Positions 1-16,822 of a DNA stretch of 64,000 bases are shown in pieces; positions within the stretch are counted from its first letter, which is position 1; the number at the start of each line of letters is the position of its first letter. Made by a program: the position numbers and the translations under genes. This DNA is from Sphingobium sp. YR768 (GTDB lineage Bacteria > Pseudomonadota > Alphaproteobacteria > Sphingomonadales > Sphingomonadaceae). Below the pieces are notes generated by a model. The model saw only the letters and a program-made list of their open reading frames with translations. It did not search any database and was not told the origin of the DNA. The DNA lies in assembly GCF_900111125.1 (NCBI RefSeq), contig NZ_FOGE01000004.1, positions 62,001-126,000 on the forward strand, in the 5' to 3' direction.

Positions 1-1
1 A

Positions 2-235
2 CTGCTTCGCATCTGCAAGGAAATTGGTAAGACGCATGCCATTATCCATGATCTAGTCGCCCTGCCGCCCGAGGCCTATGACGGAAGCGCTTTGGATTCG
101 GAGGCGAAAAAGATAGTGAGTGCTGAACTCGACCGAGTGTGGGAGTTTGCGCGCCTGAGCAGGAACGCCGCGCAAAACGGAGGTCCTTTTGCACAGGTTG
201 AGGAATTGCGGGCGATGCTGAAGGGGCGGGATTGA
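2..235 (+). CDS. Unknown protein, C-terminal fragment (5' end outside window)
   Basis: The plus-strand frame is open from the first bases of the window to a TGA at 233-235. It encodes about 77 residues that end in ELRAMLKGRD. No ATG initiation context is seen and the frame runs off the left edge, so this is the C-terminus of a longer protein. The segment is charged, predicted helical and not membrane-like. The next gene starts at the very next base, so the two are probably translationally coupled in one operon with the SMC-like ATPase. I do not recognise the family. The missing upstream part may be the effector or helicase of the operon. Confidence 0.6.
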   Translation: MLRICKEIGKTHAIIHDLVALPPEAYDGSALDSEAKKIVSAELDRVWEFARLSRNAAQNGGPFAQVEELRAMLKGRD

Positions 236-463
236 GTGCCGTACAAGGATGAAAAGGTCATCGGCATTCTGCTTGAGCAGGCAGCTGTCGCGGAGGCGCG
301 CTGCGATGGCTATCATGAGGAGCTAGCCGAAGCCGTCGCGGACATCATGACGGAAGAGCGGCAGAACAGGTTCGCACGTACAAATATTGCCGTTCGCGTG
401 GCAGATATCGTGAGCCGGGTCGGGACTTACCTTTATACCCATTCCAGCGGTGGGAAGGGTTGA
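236..463 (+). CDS. Small conserved-looking protein (75 aa) in SMC-ATPase operon
   Basis: A 75-residue ORF with a GTG start directly abutting the upstream stop codon. It ends 4 bases before the ATG of the SMC-like ATPase. The protein is predicted helical and rich in Ala and Glu, with no Cys and no membrane segment. Its size and position just before a Rad50-like ATPase recall the small middle component of three-component ABC/Lamassu-type systems. No motif proves that relation, so it is an inference from synteny. The spacing suggests obligate co-translation with both neighbours. Function unknown. Confidence 0.6.
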   Translation: MPYKDEKVIGILLEQAAVAEARCDGYHEELAEAVADIMTEERQNRFARTNIAVRVADIVSRVGTYLYTHSSGGKG

Positions 464-467
464 ACCG

Positions 468-2555
468 ATGCGGCTGGTAAAGGCGCGCTTCGATGGGTTT
501 CGCCTCCTCGACGGTCTCGAATTCGACTTCTCGGTCGACCCGCAGAAGAACATCACCGTCGTTCGCGCAGCGAATGAGAGCGGGAAGACAACCCTGCTGA
601 CCGCGTTGCAATGGGCGCTCTTCGGCGACGAGGCGCTTCCTTCAGGCTACACCACGTTCAACATGGACGTACCGAGTGGAACAGTTGCGGAAACGATCGG
701 CGAGGTGATCTATGAGGTACAGGGCAAGAAGGGATATCAGCGGTTCCGCCTGATCCGCTCACTCGTCGATCGGGCAGGCGCCCCGGTCCGTGCCAAGTCG
801 ACGGCGCAGCTTTATGAAGTGACGTCGCGCGGGTCGGTCGAAATACCGAATGTCGCGGCGCATCTCTCCAACCACATGCCCTCAGAGTTGCGGGAAGTGT
901 TTTTCACCGATGGCGATAGTGCGCTCAGCTTCATCCAGGGCAGGACTGCCGAGCAGCAAAAGCGGGTCCGGAAGGCGATCGAGCAGATGATGGGCTTGCC
1001 TCTCCTGGAGGTGGCTGTCGAGCATGTCCGCAAGGCAGAGAAGGATATCCGGTCCAAAGCCGATGCGGCAGCCGGCAGCCAGGAATTGCACGAAACCCGC
1101 GTCGCGCTCGAGGCAATCGACGCCTCCATGCCCGACCTTGAAGCCAAGCTCGCGACGACCACCGATGAGATCGCGAACCTGTCGGACCTGTTCGCTCGCG
1201 CTGATCGGGAACTGCAGGAAGCGCTGAAACGCGGCAATCGCGAGGAAATCGCCAAGGAGCTGAAGGACGTCCAGGAGCAGCAGAATGCGTGCGAAGCGCG
1301 CATGAAGGCAGCCGATCTCGCGCAGGCTGATCTTATCGCCAACAAAGAGTTCGCCAGCGAAATGATGAAGGGGAAGCTCCAAAAGGCCGGAGCGATCCTC
1401 GACGATCTGCGGACCAAGGGCGAAATCCCGAGCGCTACGATTCCTGTGCTCGAAGATCGGCTGACCCATAGCGACTGCATCTGCGGCGAATCGCTTGATG
1501 TGCATCATCCGGATGGTGCCCGGCGTCGGGCGGCGATCGAGGATTTGATTGAGCGCAGTAGAGAGACCGACGCGCTTAAATCGAAGATATCAGACCTGTA
1601 TTTTGAAGGCCGGGGGCTCTTCGAAGCACGCGAGCCGACGTGGGCCGACAAATATGCGGCCGCCTTTGTCGCCCGGTCGCGGGAACAGAGCCTGTTTGAG
1701 AAGCTTGGCCAGACGGTTGCTGACCTCGATGCGCGGCTCGACAAGGTCAAGAACGACGACGTCCAACGTGCGCGCGAAATGCGCGACACCTACCTCAAGC
1801 AGCTTGGCGAAAAGCGAGACAGCGCCACGCGCCTCGATGTCTCCTTGCGCAATCGCCGGGACCAGCGTGCCGAACTTGAGAAGAAAGTGTCCACGCTCCT
1901 CGCGCGAGAAAACAAGGGCAAGCGTTTCGGAGCAGAGTTGCTGGCTGCCCAGGACATCCGCAAAATCGTCGAGCAAACTTTGGAGATCATGAAGACGCGG
2001 GAGGTTGAGGCCGTCTCTCGCCGGATGAACGAGTATTTTGTCGAGATGATCGGCGCCGACCCGTCCACCGCCCTCATCAAATACGCGACCATTACGCCCG
2101 ATTTCAAAATTGCGGTGTTCGGTCGCAACGATCACGCGCTCGATCCGTCGCAGGACCTGAATGGCGCATCACGGCGGGCGCTGACCATCGCGTTCATTCT
2201 GGCATTGACGGAGATCAGCGGTGTCGAAGCGCCAAACGTCATCGATACACCGCTCGGCATGATGAGCGGCTTCGTGAAAACCGAAGTCGTGCGGGTGGCC
2301 TCTCGTGCCAGTTCGCAGCTCATTCTCTTGCTCACACATGACGAGATCCAGGGCTGCGAAGCAATCCTTGACGCTAAGGCCGGCGTGATCGTGACGATGA
2401 CCAACCCGGCCCATTACCCCCGCATCTTGAAGAACGACCCGGGGACGACTGAGGCCAAGGTAATGCTGTGCGATTGCGACCATCGCAGCTCTTGTGAAAT
2501 CTGCGAGCGCAAGGTGTCCTCCGACCCGTCGACCGATCTGAGCGAGGCAGCCTGA
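468..2555 (+). CDS. DndD/Rad50-like SMC-family ATPase
   Basis: A 695-residue SMC-like protein; an in-frame GTG at 450 would add six residues, but the ATG at 468 is preferred because it just follows the upstream stop. The N-terminus carries a Walker A motif (ANESGKTTLLTALQ, near residue 40). A VFFTDGD segment near residue 150 resembles the FFFDGE element of DndD-like ATPases. Long coiled-coil arms flank a CICG motif near residue 343 that could act as a variant zinc hook. The C-terminal lobe has a signature-like NGASRRALT and a D-loop-like NVIDTPLG, then a tail with five Cys (CDCDHRSSCEIC). The length fits DndD (about 650-700 aa), but no DndB, DndC or DndE lies beside it. Likely a DNA-end or structure-sensing ATPase of a defence or repair operon. 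Confidence 0.8.
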   Translation: MRLVKARFDGFRLLDGLEFDFSVDPQKNITVVRAANESGKTTLLTALQWALFGDEALPSGYTTFNMDVPSGTVAETIGEVIYEVQGKKGYQRFRLIRSLVDRAGAPVRAKSTAQLYEVTSRGSVEIPNVAAHLSNHMPSELREVFFTDGDSALSFIQGRTAEQQKRVRKAIEQMMGLPLLEVAVEHVRKAEKDIRSKADAAAGSQELHETRVALEAIDASMPDLEAKLATTTDEIANLSDLFARADRELQEALKRGNREEIAKELKDVQEQQNACEARMKAADLAQADLIANKEFASEMMKGKLQKAGAILDDLRTKGEIPSATIPVLEDRLTHSDCICGESLDVHHPDGARRRAAIEDLIERSRETDALKSKISDLYFEGRGLFEAREPTWADKYAAAFVARSREQSLFEKLGQTVADLDARLDKVKNDDVQRAREMRDTYLKQLGEKRDSATRLDVSLRNRRDQRAELEKKVSTLLARENKGKRFGAELLAAQDIRKIVEQTLEIMKTREVEAVSRRMNEYFVEMIGADPSTALIKYATITPDFKIAVFGRNDHALDPSQDLNGASRRALTIAFILALTEISGVEAPNVIDTPLGMMSGFVKTEVVRVASRASSQLILLLTHDEIQGCEAILDAKAGVIVTMTNPAHYPRILKNDPGTTEAKVMLCDCDHRSSCEICERKVSSDPSTDLSEAA

Positions 2556-3001
2556 TGGCGACGAACCCTTTCGCCGGGCTCGATATCATGGTGCCCGAGG
2601 ATTATCGCACGCACTTCGACACTTATGTCCAGCGCCGGGAAGGCAAGAGTGCTCGCCCCGTCCATCAGCCGTTCGCACGCAATATCGATATGTGGTTCGC
2701 CGCAATCTGTCTCGCTGTGCGCAAGGATTTGAAGCCCAGCGGGCCGACTGGCAAGTCCTACAAGGCAGCCGAAGGTGTCGTGCTGAGTTCCGATCCCTGG
2801 CGGCCAACGGCCCTGATGCTCTTGGCGATCGCCGACACGGACGATGCAAGCATCGTCAACCGTCCCGGCGAGATGCTGCGGATTGCTACCGGCTACGCGG
2901 TTGCCGGCCTGCCCGAGTTGCTCGCCATTCTTGAAGCGCGCGAAGGCGACACCGCGCTCGATTATTTAAGCGAGCGGCTGGAGAGCTTGCTGAAAGCCTG
3001 A
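2555..3001 (+). CDS. Unknown 148-aa protein coupled to SMC-like ATPase
   Basis: The ATG overlaps the TGA of the ATPase by one base (TGATG), a strong sign of translational coupling. The protein has 148 residues, is mixed alpha/beta in character, and has no signal peptide or obvious catalytic motif. A central segment around residues 35-55 (RNIDMWFAAICLAV) is hydrophobic enough for a buried helix but not for a membrane span. I do not recognise the family. It may be an accessory subunit binding the ATPase or its substrate; DndE-like and middle-component roles were considered but are not supported by motifs. Confidence 0.65.
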   Translation: MATNPFAGLDIMVPEDYRTHFDTYVQRREGKSARPVHQPFARNIDMWFAAICLAVRKDLKPSGPTGKSYKAAEGVVLSSDPWRPTALMLLAIADTDDASIVNRPGEMLRIATGYAVAGLPELLAILEAREGDTALDYLSERLESLLKA

Positions 3002-3039
3002 CGGCGGGCGGTGACAGGCTTGAGGGGGAGTGCAGGATA

Positions 3040-4224
3040 TTGGATGAAGTTCGTAATCCATTCGCGCCCGGCGCCGGAACGCCGCCGCCGGAACTCGCGG
3101 GCAGAACCGATGTCCTCGACCTCACTTATACTGCCCTACTGCGTATCCAGGCCGGCCGCTCGATCCAGCAACCCGTGCTCGTCGGTCTGCGCGGCGTTGG
3201 GAAAACCGTATTGCTCGTCGAAATGCAAAAAATGGCCAGCGACCAGGGGTTCATCGTTGTGGACATGGAGGCATGCGAAGAACAGTCGCTGCCCGAACTT
3301 CTCGCGCCAAAACTACGCGAAGCATTTTTGCAACTCAGCTTGGTCGAAGCGGCCAAGGAGAAGGTCAAGCGCGGGATCGGAGTGCTCAAGGCCTTCGTCG
3401 GTGGATTCGGCATCACCATGGGCGAAGTTTCGATAACCTATGACCCAACCGTCGGCATCGCGGATTCGGGACAGATCGAAGCGGACCTGCCGGCGCTGTT
3501 CATCGAGCTTGGCGAAGCCGCCGCTGCTGCTAGCCGCCCGGTGGCCATCTTCGTCGATGAGCTACAGGTCCTAAAGTCAGATGAATTCAGCGCGCTCATC
3601 ATGGCCGTGCACAAGATCAACCAGCGCCGCCTGCCGATCGTGTTCATCGGCGCCGGGCTACCGCAGGTCCTCGCTTTAGCGGGCAACTCCAAATCCTACT
3701 CCGAGCGACTTTTCCTGTTCTCCGAGATCGGCGCTCTGAAAGAGGAAGATGCGGCGGCCGCCGTCGTCAATCCGGCGAAAGCCGAGGGTGTAGAATTCGA
3801 ACCCGACGCGATCGCGGAGTTGCTCCGGATCACGCAACGCTATCCCTATTATCTGCAGCAATGGGCGCATGACGCCTGGAACGTCGCGAGTGGTGAAACC
3901 ATTACATGGAGCGATGTTATCGAGGCGCACGACATTTCCACGGCCGCGCTCGATGCCAGCTTCTTCCGCGTACGCTATGATCGGTGCCGTCCGGCAGAGA
4001 AGAAATATATGCGCGCTCTAGCGGAGTTGGGACCTGGCCATCGTCGCAGCGCAGATATCGCCGACGTTCTCGGCACCAAGGCTGACAAGATTGCCCCGAT
4101 GCGCGCCAATCTGATCAAGAAAGCGATGATCTATGCGCCGTCTCTCGGCGACGTCTGCTTCACGGTGCCGCTGTTCGACCAATTCATGAAGCGGATCATT
4201 CCGGACATTAAAAGTCTCCTATAA
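3040..4224 (+). CDS. Orc1/Cdc6-like AAA ATPase (AAA_16)
   Basis: A 394-residue ATP-binding protein. It begins with NPFAPGAGTPPPELAGR, the usual opening of this AAA family, followed by Walker A (GLRGVGKTVLL, near residue 48) and Walker B (VAIFVDELQ, near 170). The C-terminus looks like a winged-helix domain. The start is uncertain: the TTG at 3040 fits the family N-terminus but is unusual. The gene follows the 148-aa protein by 38 bases on the same strand and closes the operon. It ends 54 bases before the oppositely oriented relaxase. Family members are often stand-alone, so it may be a passenger; within an SMC-containing operon it could also be a regulatory or sensor ATPase. Confidence 0.75.
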   Translation: MDEVRNPFAPGAGTPPPELAGRTDVLDLTYTALLRIQAGRSIQQPVLVGLRGVGKTVLLVEMQKMASDQGFIVVDMEACEEQSLPELLAPKLREAFLQLSLVEAAKEKVKRGIGVLKAFVGGFGITMGEVSITYDPTVGIADSGQIEADLPALFIELGEAAAAASRPVAIFVDELQVLKSDEFSALIMAVHKINQRRLPIVFIGAGLPQVLALAGNSKSYSERLFLFSEIGALKEEDAAAAVVNPAKAEGVEFEPDAIAELLRITQRYPYYLQQWAHDAWNVASGETITWSDVIEAHDISTAALDASFFRVRYDRCRPAEKKYMRALAELGPGHRRSADIADVLGTKADKIAPMRANLIKKAMIYAPSLGDVCFTVPLFDQFMKRIIPDIKSLL

Positions 4225-4277: not shown

Positions 4278-6023
4278 CTAAAGTCCTAGCCCTCTTCCCC
4301 GCCCGAACGACCAGTCCACGCCGCCATTGCTTCGCATCACGCCGGAGATGTGCTGGCCGATCTGGCGGTCGAGCGAAGGAGACCAGGGCACGAGCTGGAA
4401 GCTCAGACCCCCATCCGGGCCAAAGCCTTCGATCATGGCGAAGCGGCCCGACGCGAGCGTGAGGCGCTGGCGCACGGTGCCGGCGACATATTCGCCGGCC
4501 TTCGACGGCGCGTGCGGCAAGCCGATCTCGGCGGAGAGTTCCCTGGCCGTCGCATCCAGCTCGCGCCGCCTGAGCGTATCGAGCAGATTGCGCGCGAAGA
4601 TGATGCGCTGGCCCTGACGCCGTGCCAGGCCCTCGTCGGCGAGATGGTCGGCGCGCGCCTCCATCGCGCCGCGCACCTCGGTCCCGAAACCGCCGCCAAG
4701 GTCGTGGCCATCGCTCGCGAGGTTGCGGCGGTCGAGCCATGTCGCGCCCGGCGCGCGGACCTGCGCGGACAAGTCCATGTCGGAGCGCACCGCGAGCGCG
4801 ACCCGCTGCCGGCCCTTGCGATCCTCGAAGCGGCGCAGCTCGACGATCGTGCCCGGCTTGCAGTCGCCGGTCGCCTCGATGTCGGGAAAGCGGACGTGAT
4901 GGGTGCGGCCGTCGATGCCGTCGACGATCGCATAGGCGCCGCCGGTCAGTTCGTCATGCAGGCCGCGATCGACCAGCCGGCCGATCACCGGCTGAGCCAG
5001 ATCGGCGTCGAGGACATAGCTCGCGGCCCCCCGGTCGATGCCGCGGTCGGTCATCGCCTGGTGCATCCGCTTGATGATGTCGCCGCCTTCGCCCATCTCG
5101 CGCAGCGCCGCCTGTGCGTCGCCGGCCAGCGTCCACTGTCCGGGCGCGATCTCGCTGGCGAGGCCGAGCCCCTCCAGCTTGCGCAGCCGCCCCATCCGCA
5201 GCACATGGTCGCCGTCCGGCCGGACGCCGGGCTCGGGCGCCATGTCGATCAGGCCGTCGCGCTGCATGGTGCGCGACAGATCGCGGTCGATCTCGGTCCA
5301 GCGTTCGGCTTCGACCTGCCGCTCCAGCGATTGGCGGATTTCGAGGTCGCTGCGCAGTCCCAGCTCGCGGGTGACGATCTCGCGCGCCACGGCCCGCATC
5401 CCCTCGCCGATATAGTCGCGCGAGATGACGAGGTTCTGCCCGTCCTCGCCGACGCCGCGCACGATGATGTGGACGTGGGGATTGTCGGTGTTCCAATGCT
5501 CGACGGCCCGCCAGTCGAGGCGGGTGCCGAGATCCGTTTCCATTCGCGCCATCAGCTCGCGGGTGAAGGTCTTGAGGTCGCCCATCTCGGGCGCGTCCTC
5601 GGGCGAGACGATGAAGCGGAAATGGTGCCGGTCGTCCTCGCACGTCGCGGCGAAGGCGTTGCGGTCCAGGCCCTCGGCGTCGGCGCCGAACAGGACGCCC
5701 CTTTCGCCGTCGCGGGTGACGCCATCGCGTTGCAGATAATTGAGGTGGGCCGCGAGCGAGGCGCGGCCGCCGTGGCGGACCACGCGCGCCTTGACGATCA
5801 CCTGGCGCGATCGGTGGCCGAGCCGATGAGTCGCGCGCAGGCTGGCGACCCGGCCCCGCCCGAAGGTCGAACGGCCCGGCGCGATGATCCGGCCCCGGCG
5901 CGAGACATGGCCGCCGGCGCGCTGCGCGGCGGCGAGCGCCTGGACGATGATCGGCAGCGCCCGCTGGCGGCCCTTCGAACGGATGCGGCCAGGCCGGATG
6001 CGGAAATCCTCGTCGCCGCTCAT
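4278..6023 (-). CDS. Relaxase/mobilization nuclease, VirD2-like (DUF3363 type)
   Basis: A 581-residue relaxase for conjugative transfer. It should nick the origin of transfer, stay bound to the 5' end and pilot the strand through a type IV secretion system. Conserved signs are a HLNYLQRDGV segment near residue 94 that may carry the catalytic Tyr, and the metal-binding HWNTDNPHVH motif at residues 176-185 (H-x3-D-x2-H-x-H). A long DUF3363-like C-terminal part follows. The ATG at 6023 (MSGDEDF) was chosen because the upstream frame extension has no family-like sequence. It is the last gene of the leftward transfer block. TraG, which normally follows in this element type, is absent; the opposing SMC operon starts there instead. 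Confidence 0.9.
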   Translation of the reverse strand: MSGDEDFRIRPGRIRSKGRQRALPIIVQALAAAQRAGGHVSRRGRIIAPGRSTFGRGRVASLRATHRLGHRSRQVIVKARVVRHGGRASLAAHLNYLQRDGVTRDGERGVLFGADAEGLDRNAFAATCEDDRHHFRFIVSPEDAPEMGDLKTFTRELMARMETDLGTRLDWRAVEHWNTDNPHVHIIVRGVGEDGQNLVISRDYIGEGMRAVAREIVTRELGLRSDLEIRQSLERQVEAERWTEIDRDLSRTMQRDGLIDMAPEPGVRPDGDHVLRMGRLRKLEGLGLASEIAPGQWTLAGDAQAALREMGEGGDIIKRMHQAMTDRGIDRGAASYVLDADLAQPVIGRLVDRGLHDELTGGAYAIVDGIDGRTHHVRFPDIEATGDCKPGTIVELRRFEDRKGRQRVALAVRSDMDLSAQVRAPGATWLDRRNLASDGHDLGGGFGTEVRGAMEARADHLADEGLARRQGQRIIFARNLLDTLRRRELDATARELSAEIGLPHAPSKAGEYVAGTVRQRLTLASGRFAMIEGFGPDGGLSFQLVPWSPSLDRQIGQHISGVMRSNGGVDWSFGRGRGLGL

Positions 6024-6282
6024 GGCGCGGCGCTCCGCAATGTGGGGAAATCCTTGGAGGCGGCTGGCGTTCGGCCAGCGTCCCACAGTGCGGGGTTCCC
6101 GCACACATTGCGCAGCAATGACCAAAAGCCTTGGGAAACAAGGCTACGACCGGGGCAAAATGGCTGCGCACATTGCCGCCCTTTATCTTGCCCTCGACCT
6201 TCCCCCTGCAAAATCCCAAGCCTGCCCCCTTCCGATACTGCGAAAGGCTGCGAGGGAGAACGCCAGGGCGCGCGAGGCCCGC

Positions 6283-13756: not shown

Positions 13757-14164
13757 TCAACCCTCGCGGAGAAATGGATTGAGGATGCGCAGCGCCCCAT
13801 CAACGAGGAGGCCGTGCTGCATATCTTCCGACCAAAGCGTAGCACAACCGGCCGCGCGCGCGGCGGCGACGATCATTCCGTCATAGACAGAGAGCTGATA
13901 GCGTTCGGCGATGGCGATGCCCGCTTCATGGATGTCGATCGTGACGGGAACGACATCGACCAATCCGCGCACGGCGCTCAGCAGCGCGTGCGTTTCGGGC
14001 CAGTCCAGCCCCATCTTCCGCCGGGCGACACTGGTAATCTCGTTCAGAACCTGAACGCTGATCAGGCCGCCGTCGGCGAGAAGAGCCTCGGCGCGCTCGG
14101 CCTTCGCCCGATCGGCGCCGGCCATATAGAGGATCACGTTGGAGTCGAGGAAACTACCGGGCAT
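13757..14164 (-). CDS. vapC: VapC-type PIN-domain ribonuclease toxin
   Basis: A 135-residue PIN-domain RNase. Acidic metal-binding residues are visible: Asp in SFLDSNVILY near the N-terminus, Glu in VQVLNEITSVA near residue 42, Asp in YQLSVYDGMIVAAA near residue 95, and the C-terminal WSEDM. The toxin should cleave RNA when the labile antitoxin is lost, stabilising the element. It overlaps the vapB 3' end by 11 bases, which couples translation. Confidence 0.9.
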   Translation of the reverse strand: MPGSFLDSNVILYMAGADRAKAERAEALLADGGLISVQVLNEITSVARRKMGLDWPETHALLSAVRGLVDVVPVTIDIHEAGIAIAERYQLSVYDGMIVAAARAAGCATLWSEDMQHGLLVDGALRILNPFLREG

Positions 14165-14384
14165 TGGCCTCGTCCCTGTCGAACTTCCAGTCCGCAGGGA
14201 GTCGACCGCGAAACGCCTGCAACCGCTTCAGGAACTCGGCGCGGCCAGGTTTGCGTGAAACCGCCAGTTCGCGGCTGTCGTCGAGCCGGATTTCGATCTC
14301 GTCGCCTTCCTTCAGCTTGAGGGCGTCAACCACGATCGCGGGCAGTCGGATGGCAAGGCTATTGCCCCATTTGGCGACCTGCAT
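14154..14384 (-). CDS. vapB: VapB/MazE-type AbrB-fold antitoxin
   Basis: A 76-residue antitoxin with the AbrB/SpoVT swapped-hairpin N-terminus MQVAKWGNSLAIRLP, then LKLKEGDEIEIRLDD. The ATG at 14384 was chosen over one at 14390 because GGAG lies six bases upstream of it. The C-terminal part should wrap the PIN toxin. The protein probably binds the palindrome upstream and represses its own operon. Confidence 0.9.
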   Translation of the reverse strand: MQVAKWGNSLAIRLPAIVVDALKLKEGDEIEIRLDDSRELAVSRKPGRAEFLKRLQAFRGRLPADWKFDRDEANAR

Positions 14385-14395
14385 GAACATCTCCA

Positions 14396-15760: not shown

Positions 15761-16822
15761 TCAGGCAATGGCCAGGAACCGGCTCACGTCTTCGGGGACG
15801 AGCTGCAAGGCCAACGCAGCCTGCATCCGCTCAGGCCCCAGCAGGCGCAGATCCTCGTTGAAATCGCCGAGCATGGGCGAGAGCGGCACGACCTCGATCC
15901 CGGCCCCGGAAGCCCGCTCGGTCAACCTCGCCAACGCCGCGTCGCCGGCCGGATCGTCGTCGCGGCCGACATAGAGGCGCCGGAGCGCGGGCGGGAACAG
16001 CACGGCTCCGAGGTGGGGCGAGGACAGAGCGGCGATCATGGGCATGGCGGGCATGACCTGACGCAAAGACAGGATCGTCTCGATGCCTTCGCCCGCCGCC
16101 ATCACCGCATCCGATCTGCCGAAGCGGACGCCGTGCCCGAGAAGGAAACCCATCGCGCGCCGAGGCGTGACGACAGGCGCCTTGGTCGATGTGGCGGGGT
16201 CCAGCCAGGTGCGGTGAACGCCGGTGATCGCGCCATCGAGATCGGTGACGGCGGCGATCATGGCAGGGCATGCGCGACGGGTGCCGGCCAAGTCCTTCCG
16301 CGACGGGGTGTAGTAGCAGCGCGGGTGGCAGCGGAGCGGGTCGTCCGCCAGCAAGGCCGTGATCGCGCGTCCCCGCAGATAGGCTTGAGCGACCGATCCC
16401 CGGACAGGCCCGGACGCGGCGAACAGACGTCTGGCGGCTTGCGGCGAGCCGGTGGGCGCTTTCGGCTCACGCGCATGGCGTGGACCATCGGTGCAAGGCT
16501 CGGGATGCGGCAGGCTGAGGAAGCTCCGGGCTTCGTCCAGCGTGTCGCGGAGCTGCGAATGGCCGCAGACGAGTGCGATGATATCGAGCAGGTCGCCATG
16601 CTCGCCGGTCGCGGCATCGGTCCATTTTCCGGCCGCGCCCCGGCCGTCCTCCGAGCCCGAAAGCCGCACATAGAGGCTGCGGCCCGGCGTGTTGTGGGCA
16701 TCGCCGACCAGCCAATAGCGGCCTTCGCGATGCCCCTTCGACAGGTAATGACGGCAAACCGCCTCGGCCCGATCGCCGAGACGGTTCGCCAGTTCGCCTG
16801 CCTGATCCGACAGCCGGCCCAT
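15761..16822 (-). CDS. Toprim-domain protein (DnaG-like, ICE primase type)
   Basis: A 353-residue protein from the ATG at 16822, overlapping the stop of the helicase gene by one base (TGATG). The N-terminal part (LSKGHREGRYWLVGDAHNTPGRSLYVRL, then GKWTDAATGEHGDLLDIIAL) resembles the zinc-finger-like/DUF7146 region of ICE primases. The C-terminal half has Toprim motifs: the Glu in VMAAGEGIETILSLRQ and DxD-like residues in LYVGRDDDPAGD. It may prime the transferred strand or process DNA ends together with the helicase. Confidence 0.82.
   Translation of the reverse strand: MGRLSDQAGELANRLGDRAEAVCRHYLSKGHREGRYWLVGDAHNTPGRSLYVRLSGSEDGRGAAGKWTDAATGEHGDLLDIIALVCGHSQLRDTLDEARSFLSLPHPEPCTDGPRHAREPKAPTGSPQAARRLFAASGPVRGSVAQAYLRGRAITALLADDPLRCHPRCYYTPSRKDLAGTRRACPAMIAAVTDLDGAITGVHRTWLDPATSTKAPVVTPRRAMGFLLGHGVRFGRSDAVMAAGEGIETILSLRQVMPAMPMIAALSSPHLGAVLFPPALRRLYVGRDDDPAGDAALARLTERASGAGIEVVPLSPMLGDFNEDLRLLGPERMQAALALQLVPEDVSRFLAIA

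Follow-up and report, generated by a model that had tools for sequence, protein, structure and literature searches.

A predicted phosphorothioate modification-restriction locus combining SspABCD, PbeABCD and an accessory AAA ATPase on an integrated conjugative element of Sphingobium

The described systems closest to a nine-gene locus of Sphingobium sp. YR768, the subject of this report, are phosphorothioate (PT) modification-restriction systems. The DndCDEA-PbeABCD system (PMC6459918), counted among the CxC ABC ATPase-DndE systems (PMC10853773), has the gene order PbeA-B-C-D, a PbeA that joins an HKD nuclease to an SF2 helicase, a CxC hook, a PbeB of 66 aa, and a PbeD of 152 aa. PbeABCD pairs elsewhere with Dnd or methylases, and the defense of the archaeal system required pbeB, pbeC, and pbeD individually (PMC6459918). 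In that study viral DNA replication was inhibited without cleavage (Xiong 2019, PMC6459918), whereas cleavage by the HKD domain of PbeA is argued for in PMC10853773. The latter work also names PbeD a DndE cognate, places the PbeC clade as the sister of DndD, and proposes target-site scanning by ABC ATPase-DndE pairs. SspABCD modification modules are defined by single-strand PT at 5'-C(PS)CA-3' and occur in the SspABCD-SspFGH (PMC8092258) and SspABCD-SspE (PMC8092258, PMC9646914) systems, where they function without Pbe (PMC8092258). About four fifths of 2,678 sspBCD loci have neither SspE nor SspFGH, and other restriction partners were asked about (PMC8092258). Strains with PT genes plus pbeA-D have been counted, with ssp or dnd not specified (PMC7464106).

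The window is the whole 64,000-nucleotide stretch analyzed (contig NZ_FOGE01000004.1, here C38:62001-126000 of the host genome G000), and its left flank was taken as C38:50001-68000 (L002). Flank and window together carry nine co-oriented genes on the + strand, sspA-B-C-D-pbeA-B-C-D-AAA, of which the left half lies outside the window; the window starts inside pbeA. We consider it highly probable that these genes form a PT modification-restriction system, SspABCD-PbeABCD with an accessory AAA ATPase, and that an integrated conjugative element carries them as cargo. The sequence comparisons themselves show the gene content, homology, and synteny, the differing kinship of the Ssp and Pbe halves, the clade of the AAA gene, and the site of insertion. 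Compared with DndCDEA-PbeABCD, SspABCD replaces Dnd, PbeB and PbeD (75 and 148 aa) fall beyond the PADLOC models, and there is an additional AAA gene. SspABCD is shared with the SspFGH and SspE systems, but the restriction module is PbeABCD in place of SspFGH, and no SspE-type gene is among the nine. The PT logic and a DndD-like ATPase are shared with DndABCDE-DndFGH; the whole host genome gave no DndC match at E 1e-60, a search in which DndF, DndG, and DndH were not queried individually. No description of SspABCD together with PbeABCD was found in the available parts of the literature, although a gene table that lists the two modules together may have been published. Each half is already known, and what is new is their combination and the accessory AAA slot.

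The genes are tightly packed. From sspB through pbeD they overlap or are separated by at most 4 bases, given the GTG at C38:60064 as the pbeA start; a later ATG start is possible instead. Overlaps of 4 bases join sspB to sspC, sspC to sspD, and, with the GTG start only, sspD to pbeA. No base separates pbeA (end 235) from the 75-aa gene (start 236), 4 bases separate the latter (end 463) from the best pbeC start, the ATG at 468, and pbeC and pbeD share one base (2555). The gap from the end of pbeD (3001) to the TTG start of the AAA gene (3040) is 38 bases. The initial annotation of the window described five same-strand genes, the first four coupled and the AAA gene 38 bases on, and the coordinates bear this out.

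Table 1. Features of the nine-gene locus and its right neighbor; positions are those of the window unless prefixed with C38.
Feature	Coordinates	Strand	Basis
sspA, cysteine desulfurase	C38:53790-54974	+	PADLOC SspA 5e-115; DndA almost equal (2e-110)
sspB, DUF4007 protein	C38:55006-55938 (by coding score)	+	PADLOC SspB 1.5e-101
sspC, ATPase, 1098 aa	C38:55935-59231	+	PADLOC SspC E 0
sspD, PAPS-reductase-type (PP-loop), 279 aa	C38:59228-60067	+	PADLOC SspD 9e-129
pbeA, HKD/PLD nuclease + SF2 helicase, 723 aa	C38:60064-62235 (3' end at window 2..235)	+	PADLOC PbeA 8e-185
pbeB-like small protein, 75 aa	236..463	+	place, size, synteny, suggestive hhalign match
pbeC, CxC zinc-hook ABC ATPase, 695 aa	468..2555	+	PADLOC PbeC 1.5e-44 versus DndD 9e-29
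Predicted zinc hook CIC, PbeC residues 337-339	1476..1484	+	in 21/22 distinct PbeC sequences
PbeC C-terminal Cys cluster CxC-x5-CxxC, residues 668-681	2469..2510	+	in the same 21/22 sequences
pbeD, divergent relative of 'DNA phosphorothioation-associated protein 4', 148 aa	2555..3001	+	hhalign
Accessory AAA_16 (Orc1/Cdc6-like) ATPase, 394 aa, TTG start	3040..4224	+	Pfam AAA_16 8e-13
Intact relaxase, DUF3363 + MobA/VirD2-like, right neighbor	4278..6125 (ATG start at 6023 also possible)	-	Pfam

PADLOC and Pfam identify sspA, sspB, sspC, and sspD as an adjacent set (cysteine desulfurase, DUF4007, ATPase, PP-loop). SspD has the SGGxDS motif, and 67 columns of a 21-sequence alignment are fully conserved. 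The best DndC match beside the locus reached only E 1.4e-4 and fell on SspD. SspABCD is thus the predicted PT modification module attached to the pbe genes. The initial annotation had found no Dnd partners adjacent, and this was wrong because the attached phosphorothioation module lies directly upstream, beyond the window edge.

Homology identifies the partial gene at the window start as the end of pbeA. PbeA scored 359.5 bits against NCBIfam TIGR04095, 'DNA phosphorothioation system restriction enzyme', under the 600-bit cut-off. In Pfam it matched ResIII, DEAD, and Helicase_C, with PLDc_2 only under the cut-off. Across 721 aligned columns it shares 33% identity with the PbeA from a Dnd-linked locus, and a sequence search of solved structures returned for the most part RAD25/XPB-type helicases. 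The HKD residues H151, K153, G168-S169, and N171 (HxK, GSxN) are kept in 21 of 22 sequences, the other (L025) being truncated.

PbeC was compared with a plasmid locus that carries Dnd and Pbe and thus both PbeC and DndD. It aligned near full-length to that PbeC with 114 bits and the CIC hooks in register, versus 50 bits and a C-terminal piece only for the DndD. Zinc binding by the hook is predicted from the motif. The single sequence without the hook and Cys cluster, that of L012, was recovered as two separate tblastn pieces; the count of 22 drops the duplicates L059 and L060 and excludes the fragment loci L017 and L024. Two DndD-like segments had been singled out in the initial annotation, and both are well conserved: all columns of VFFTDGD, and six of the eight columns of NVIDTPLG, reach a conservation of at least 95%. 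The Lamassu-like affinity suggested there was not borne out, since in a family test covering Lamassu and other SMC systems the best 25 of 77 PADLOC rows for the ATPase were all PbeC or DndD. The solved-structure search with PbeC returned two Rad50 sequences only.

The two small proteins were placed by position and profile comparison. The 75-aa protein occupies the PbeB position, has a size comparable with the published PbeB (PMC6459918), and is syntenic in 20 of 22 loci collected as described below. Its profile gave Prob 0.1 against the PbeD profile in hhalign, and its structure model is weak, with three helices, a predicted local distance difference test score (pLDDT) of 74, and a predicted template modeling score of 0.55. 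The 148-aa protein searched alone gave only a match at chance level (E 0.16). Of the 31 members of the PbeD family, 11 match TIGR04062 at E 0.01, and the window PbeD is not one of them. Its profile aligned over 130 columns (hhalign Prob 96.6, E 6e-10) to four proteins, one of them annotated as PT-associated protein 4, at the PbeD position of Dnd- or methyltransferase-linked loci, and on this homology we assign the 148-aa protein to PbeD as a divergent member. No similarity to one DndE (L067) was detectable (hhalign Prob 0.2). Pfam matched none of the 28 members of the PbeD alignment, some of which bear a precomputed PF27807 label. The PbeD structure model has a pLDDT of 90, and the support for a tandem ribbon-helix-helix (DndE-type) fold is weak; the best Foldseek match had E 2.3, and no DndE chain was among the matches listed, a result that does not exclude the DndE-type fold. 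The solved-structure sequence search gave no PbeD match at E 1, and a viral-contig scan gave 54 pattern matches with no PbeD relative among them.

The PbeD alignment was used to scan an 84,980-species genome collection, which yielded 22 loci in records from Proteobacteria, Acidobacteria, Binatia, Nitrospinae, Rhodothermaceae, and Bacteroidetes. Conserved synteny, proposed in the initial annotation as a check on the operon, is present. PbeA, B, C, and D are complete and in the same order in 20 of the 22 loci, so their association is not due to chance; the other two, L017 and L024, contain just fragments of PbeD or of PbeC-PbeD. SspC and SspD flank PbeABCD in 19 of these 20, and the contig of the 20th (L008) begins 37 bases before pbeA. 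Ssp lies upstream and co-oriented in 14 loci, the halves are convergent in four (L018, L019, L020, L023), and Pbe precedes Ssp in one (L021). Plasmid CP099618 of a Sphingomonadaceae bacterium (L047) carries all nine genes in the order of the window. By annotation, the reference loci L065-L068 share the order PbeA-PbeB-PbeC-PbeD, although in L068 a transposase separates PbeB from PbeC. These loci were drawn by the PbeD of this clade, and they therefore show that the clade, not all Pbe, is tied to Ssp.

A less biased sample comprised 398 genomes of the phylum, host included. PbeA was matched at E 1e-40 in 35 of them, a number inflated by partial, mainly helicase-only matches, and at 390 bits or more in seven. 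SspD is adjacent in two of the seven, the host and apparently the L005 genome; among the other five, DndC lies within 10 kb in two and 28 kb off in one, and neither gene was found in two. SspD itself occurs at 12 loci in 11 genomes of the sample.

Two further SspD neighborhoods were seen outside these samples. In Rhizobium indigoferae (NZ_CP140639.1, 262458-265439) an SspD 81% identical to that of the window and a convergent PbeA-like gene, only 32% identical, are 84 bases apart, and this is perhaps an independent Ssp-Pbe pairing. On Mesorhizobium onobrychidis plasmid pOM4 (L064), annotated SspABCD-type genes adjoin opposite-strand genes for a PLD-like protein, an ATP-binding protein, and a DEAD helicase, which perhaps represent another uncharacterized SspBCD partner.

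The kinship of the two halves was judged from pairwise identities, and the halves disagree. The window SspC and SspD are 65% and 82% identical to those of a Sphingobium yanoikuyae set (L063), which neighbors SspH, SspG, and SspF as confirmed by family scan. SspC is only 39-41% identical to its counterparts in L047, L005, and L004, yet PbeA is 66-70% identical to the same three. The halves have probably been re-paired, because the Ssp half is closest to an SspFGH-linked set and the Pbe half is closest to sets beside other SspABCDs. They seem to have had different histories and still to have been kept together.

The AAA protein belongs to a large family (7972 matches among 8000 candidates scored). 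Of its 21 nearest database relatives, all match Walker A and 20 match Walker B, and the protein gave no match at E 0.01 in the solved-structure sequence search. That the gene is an unrelated passenger that chances to follow pbeD is somewhat unlikely, although several observations point that way. Copies at E 1e-60 occur in 12 of 296 genomes of the order, host included, and the 11 non-host copies (42-51% identical) lacked any Ssp or Pbe gene in the flanks covered, which extended roughly 1.5 kb each way and less where a contig ended; wider stretches for nine of the 11 showed varied neighbors by eye. Of the 22 PbeD loci, 20 showed no AAA gene; in some of these the contig stops soon past pbeD, but L004, with a PbeD 72% identical, has no AAA after pbeD despite enough sequence. 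A gap of 38 bases, instead of an overlap, precedes the gene. On the other side, AAA lies directly 3' of pbeD in four loci seen directly (window, L005, L015, L047). An AAA tree of 89 rows was built from 11 locus sequences, seven of them solitary, and 78 matches, which were the first 79 in a list of 120 less one of 331 aa that was dropped. A single clade of 28 rows, supported at 100/100, contains all 19 rows labeled as Pbe-linked, and its other nine rows are unlabeled; four of the linkages were seen directly, and 15 of the 19 labels were assigned indirectly, from AAA and PbeD or PbeB matches that apparently share a contig. These data indicate that the AAA gene goes with the operon in a sublineage.

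Other genes fill the position 3' of pbeD in relatives. It holds GmrSD_N and then SIR2_2 in L004, GmrSD_N in L020, a GmrSD_N+GmrSD_C protein with SspE-type architecture in L014, and HATPase in L018. In L012 SIR2_2 comes second after pbeD, behind a protein that resembles the L004 GmrSD_N by eye, and in L021 SIR2_2 lies upstream of pbeA on the opposite strand. In the convergent loci L018 (10537-14807) and L019 (10536-14812) a 790-aa protein, the HATPase of L018, and a protein of about 635 aa follow pbeD. A family scan of L018 alone gave no Pfam match for the latter, and the 790- and 635-aa genes are a possible further accessory pair. The odds are about even that a distinct PbeABCD clade switched its partner from double-strand (Dnd) to single-strand (Ssp) PT and is now dedicated to it, with cross-lineage re-pairing of the halves that nonetheless stay together in every testable locus. 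The slot after pbeD would be swappable for a backup or regulatory component, Orc1/Cdc6-like AAA here and GmrSD_N with SIR2, SspE-like GmrSD, or HATPase in relatives.

The activities, the mark, its target motif, and defense itself are predictions that draw in part on published work on each half. SspA would use cysteine as the sulfur source, and SspD (PP-loop) and SspC (ATPase), with SspB (DNA-binding/nicking) as the guide, would introduce single-strand PT marks in host DNA. PbeC (zinc-hook ABC ATPase) and PbeD (DNA-binding, DndE-type) would scan DNA and read the mark, and PbeA (HKD nuclease plus SF2 translocase) would act on unmarked phage DNA and so block replication. PbeB may act as a small, obligate regulatory or coupling protein. 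An auxiliary NTPase role is predicted for the AAA protein; since relatives place other genes in its slot, it is less likely to belong to the core than to serve as a sensor or a backup. PbeC and PbeD might instead belong to the modification machinery and select targets for SspABCD, as in DndD-DndE, rather than read the mark for restriction. The DndE cognate assignment of PbeD, the sister relation of PbeC to DndD, and the site-scanning proposal (PMC10853773) fit such a role. We regard it as very unlikely: SspABCD works without PbeC and PbeD when paired with SspE or SspFGH (PMC8092258), a close SspABCD relative has SspFGH in place of Pbe, and the archaeal defense fails without any one of pbeB, pbeC, and pbeD (PMC6459918). 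It is also improbable, if less so, that two independent defense modules share an island, with SspABCD an orphan modification and PbeABCD using another mark (e.g. methylation) or acting alone. PbeABCD does occur with Dnd or methylases (PMC6459918), methyltransferases lie near L065, L066, and L068, and 10 of 12 SspD loci of the phylum sample have no adjacent PbeA match. However, SspC and SspD accompany Pbe in 19 of 19 testable loci of the PbeD clade, in three arrangements and despite different closest relatives, and sspD and pbeA overlap here if pbeA begins at GTG.

An undescribed SMC/AAA defense type, the proposal of the initial annotation, had in its favor that, inside the window, neither small protein matched any family significantly and the matches of the AAA protein were just generic. 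It would have fallen if the gene upstream proved an ordinary component of a known system. That gene is PbeA, and with SspABCD before it and the homology of PbeC and PbeD, both halves are identified; the upstream sequence rules this type out, and we give it a negligible probability. A defense-type operon with a DndD-like ATPase, small partners, and an AAA gene associated in a sublineage is the part of the proposal that stands.

Some observations weigh against an SspABCD-PbeABCD system. PbeA adjoins only 2 of the 12 SspD loci of the phylum sample, one of them in the host, and the Ssp-Pbe pairing is therefore a minority of SspBCD. The second-closest SspABCD (L020, SspC 63%) is Pbe-linked, although its Pbe is distant (PbeA 51%) and its orientation different. 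The homology of the 75-aa protein to small proteins at the PbeB position elsewhere is no more than suggestive (hhalign Prob 47, E 1.9e-4, 52 columns), and the PADLOC PbeB (65 positions) and PbeD (152 positions) models gave no match at E 1 in the host and four other genomes. A pipeline that uses these models would probably call the system incomplete because they miss these proteins. The available account of the PbeABCD study found no viral DNA cleavage (PMC6459918). The HKD aspartate, present in 14 of 21 untruncated sequences, that of the window among them, is absent in the other seven (L015, L019-L023, L047); cleavage by PbeA is therefore predicted as possible only, from the retained HKD residues.

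The locus sits between conjugation genes, with VirD4 on its left and the relaxase on its right, both on the - strand. The relaxase gene is intact, VirD4 continues on the far side of the cargo, and CopG-like and trb-like frames, named by eye from translations, follow VirD4. The transfer module that the initial annotation took to be truncated is thus interrupted by cargo. In a near-empty site (G301:C5, listed as L048) VirD4 and the relaxase, 91% and 90% identical, are only 183 bases apart. The blastn homology to this copy ends at base 3395 of L002 and resumes at base 16278 (window 4278), at the relaxase end. This leaves 12,882 bases here versus 177 unalignable bases in the near-empty copy, edges that are limits of alignable DNA and not proven insertion ends. 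The GC content of the cargo is 60.9%, versus 67.7% and 71.1% in the flanks. The Ssp-Pbe set of L004 lies in the same relaxase/VirD4 gap (L059). L015 was considered as another occupant and rejected, as its Ssp-Pbe operon lies beyond VirD4-CopG and a different cargo is in the slot. Across copies of the element family (G000:C38:53395-66278, G301:C5, G302:C4, G302:C20, G302:C51, G297:C2, G299:C3, G296:C11, G000:C57) the gap measures 24-183 bases in five and holds varied cargo in others, and it looks like a cargo hot spot.

A second conjugative element of the host (G000:C48:33000-61000; L057, L058) carries SspD and an Ssp-like set between VirD4 and the relaxase, together with SspF, SspG, and SspH (PADLOC 1e-159, 2e-141, and 0). 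The host would therefore carry a different single-strand PT system in each of two equivalent slots. A small gene pair that resembles a MazE/AbrB-type antitoxin and a PIN-type toxin by eye lies at window 13757-14390 and again in G000:C57 (L055 18364-19003), and so is present in two elements of the host genome.

PbeABCD is a candidate answer for the sspBCD loci that have neither SspE nor SspFGH. The accessory slot points to AAA, SIR2, and GmrSD proteins as PT-linked auxiliaries. Related SspABCD modules (SspD 82%, SspC 65%) accompany SspFGH in one organism but PbeABCD in a second, and so constitute a natural exchange experiment. Whether PbeABCD reads the single-strand mark, and whether it cleaves DNA (PMC6459918 versus PMC10853773), is therefore directly testable in E. 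coli.

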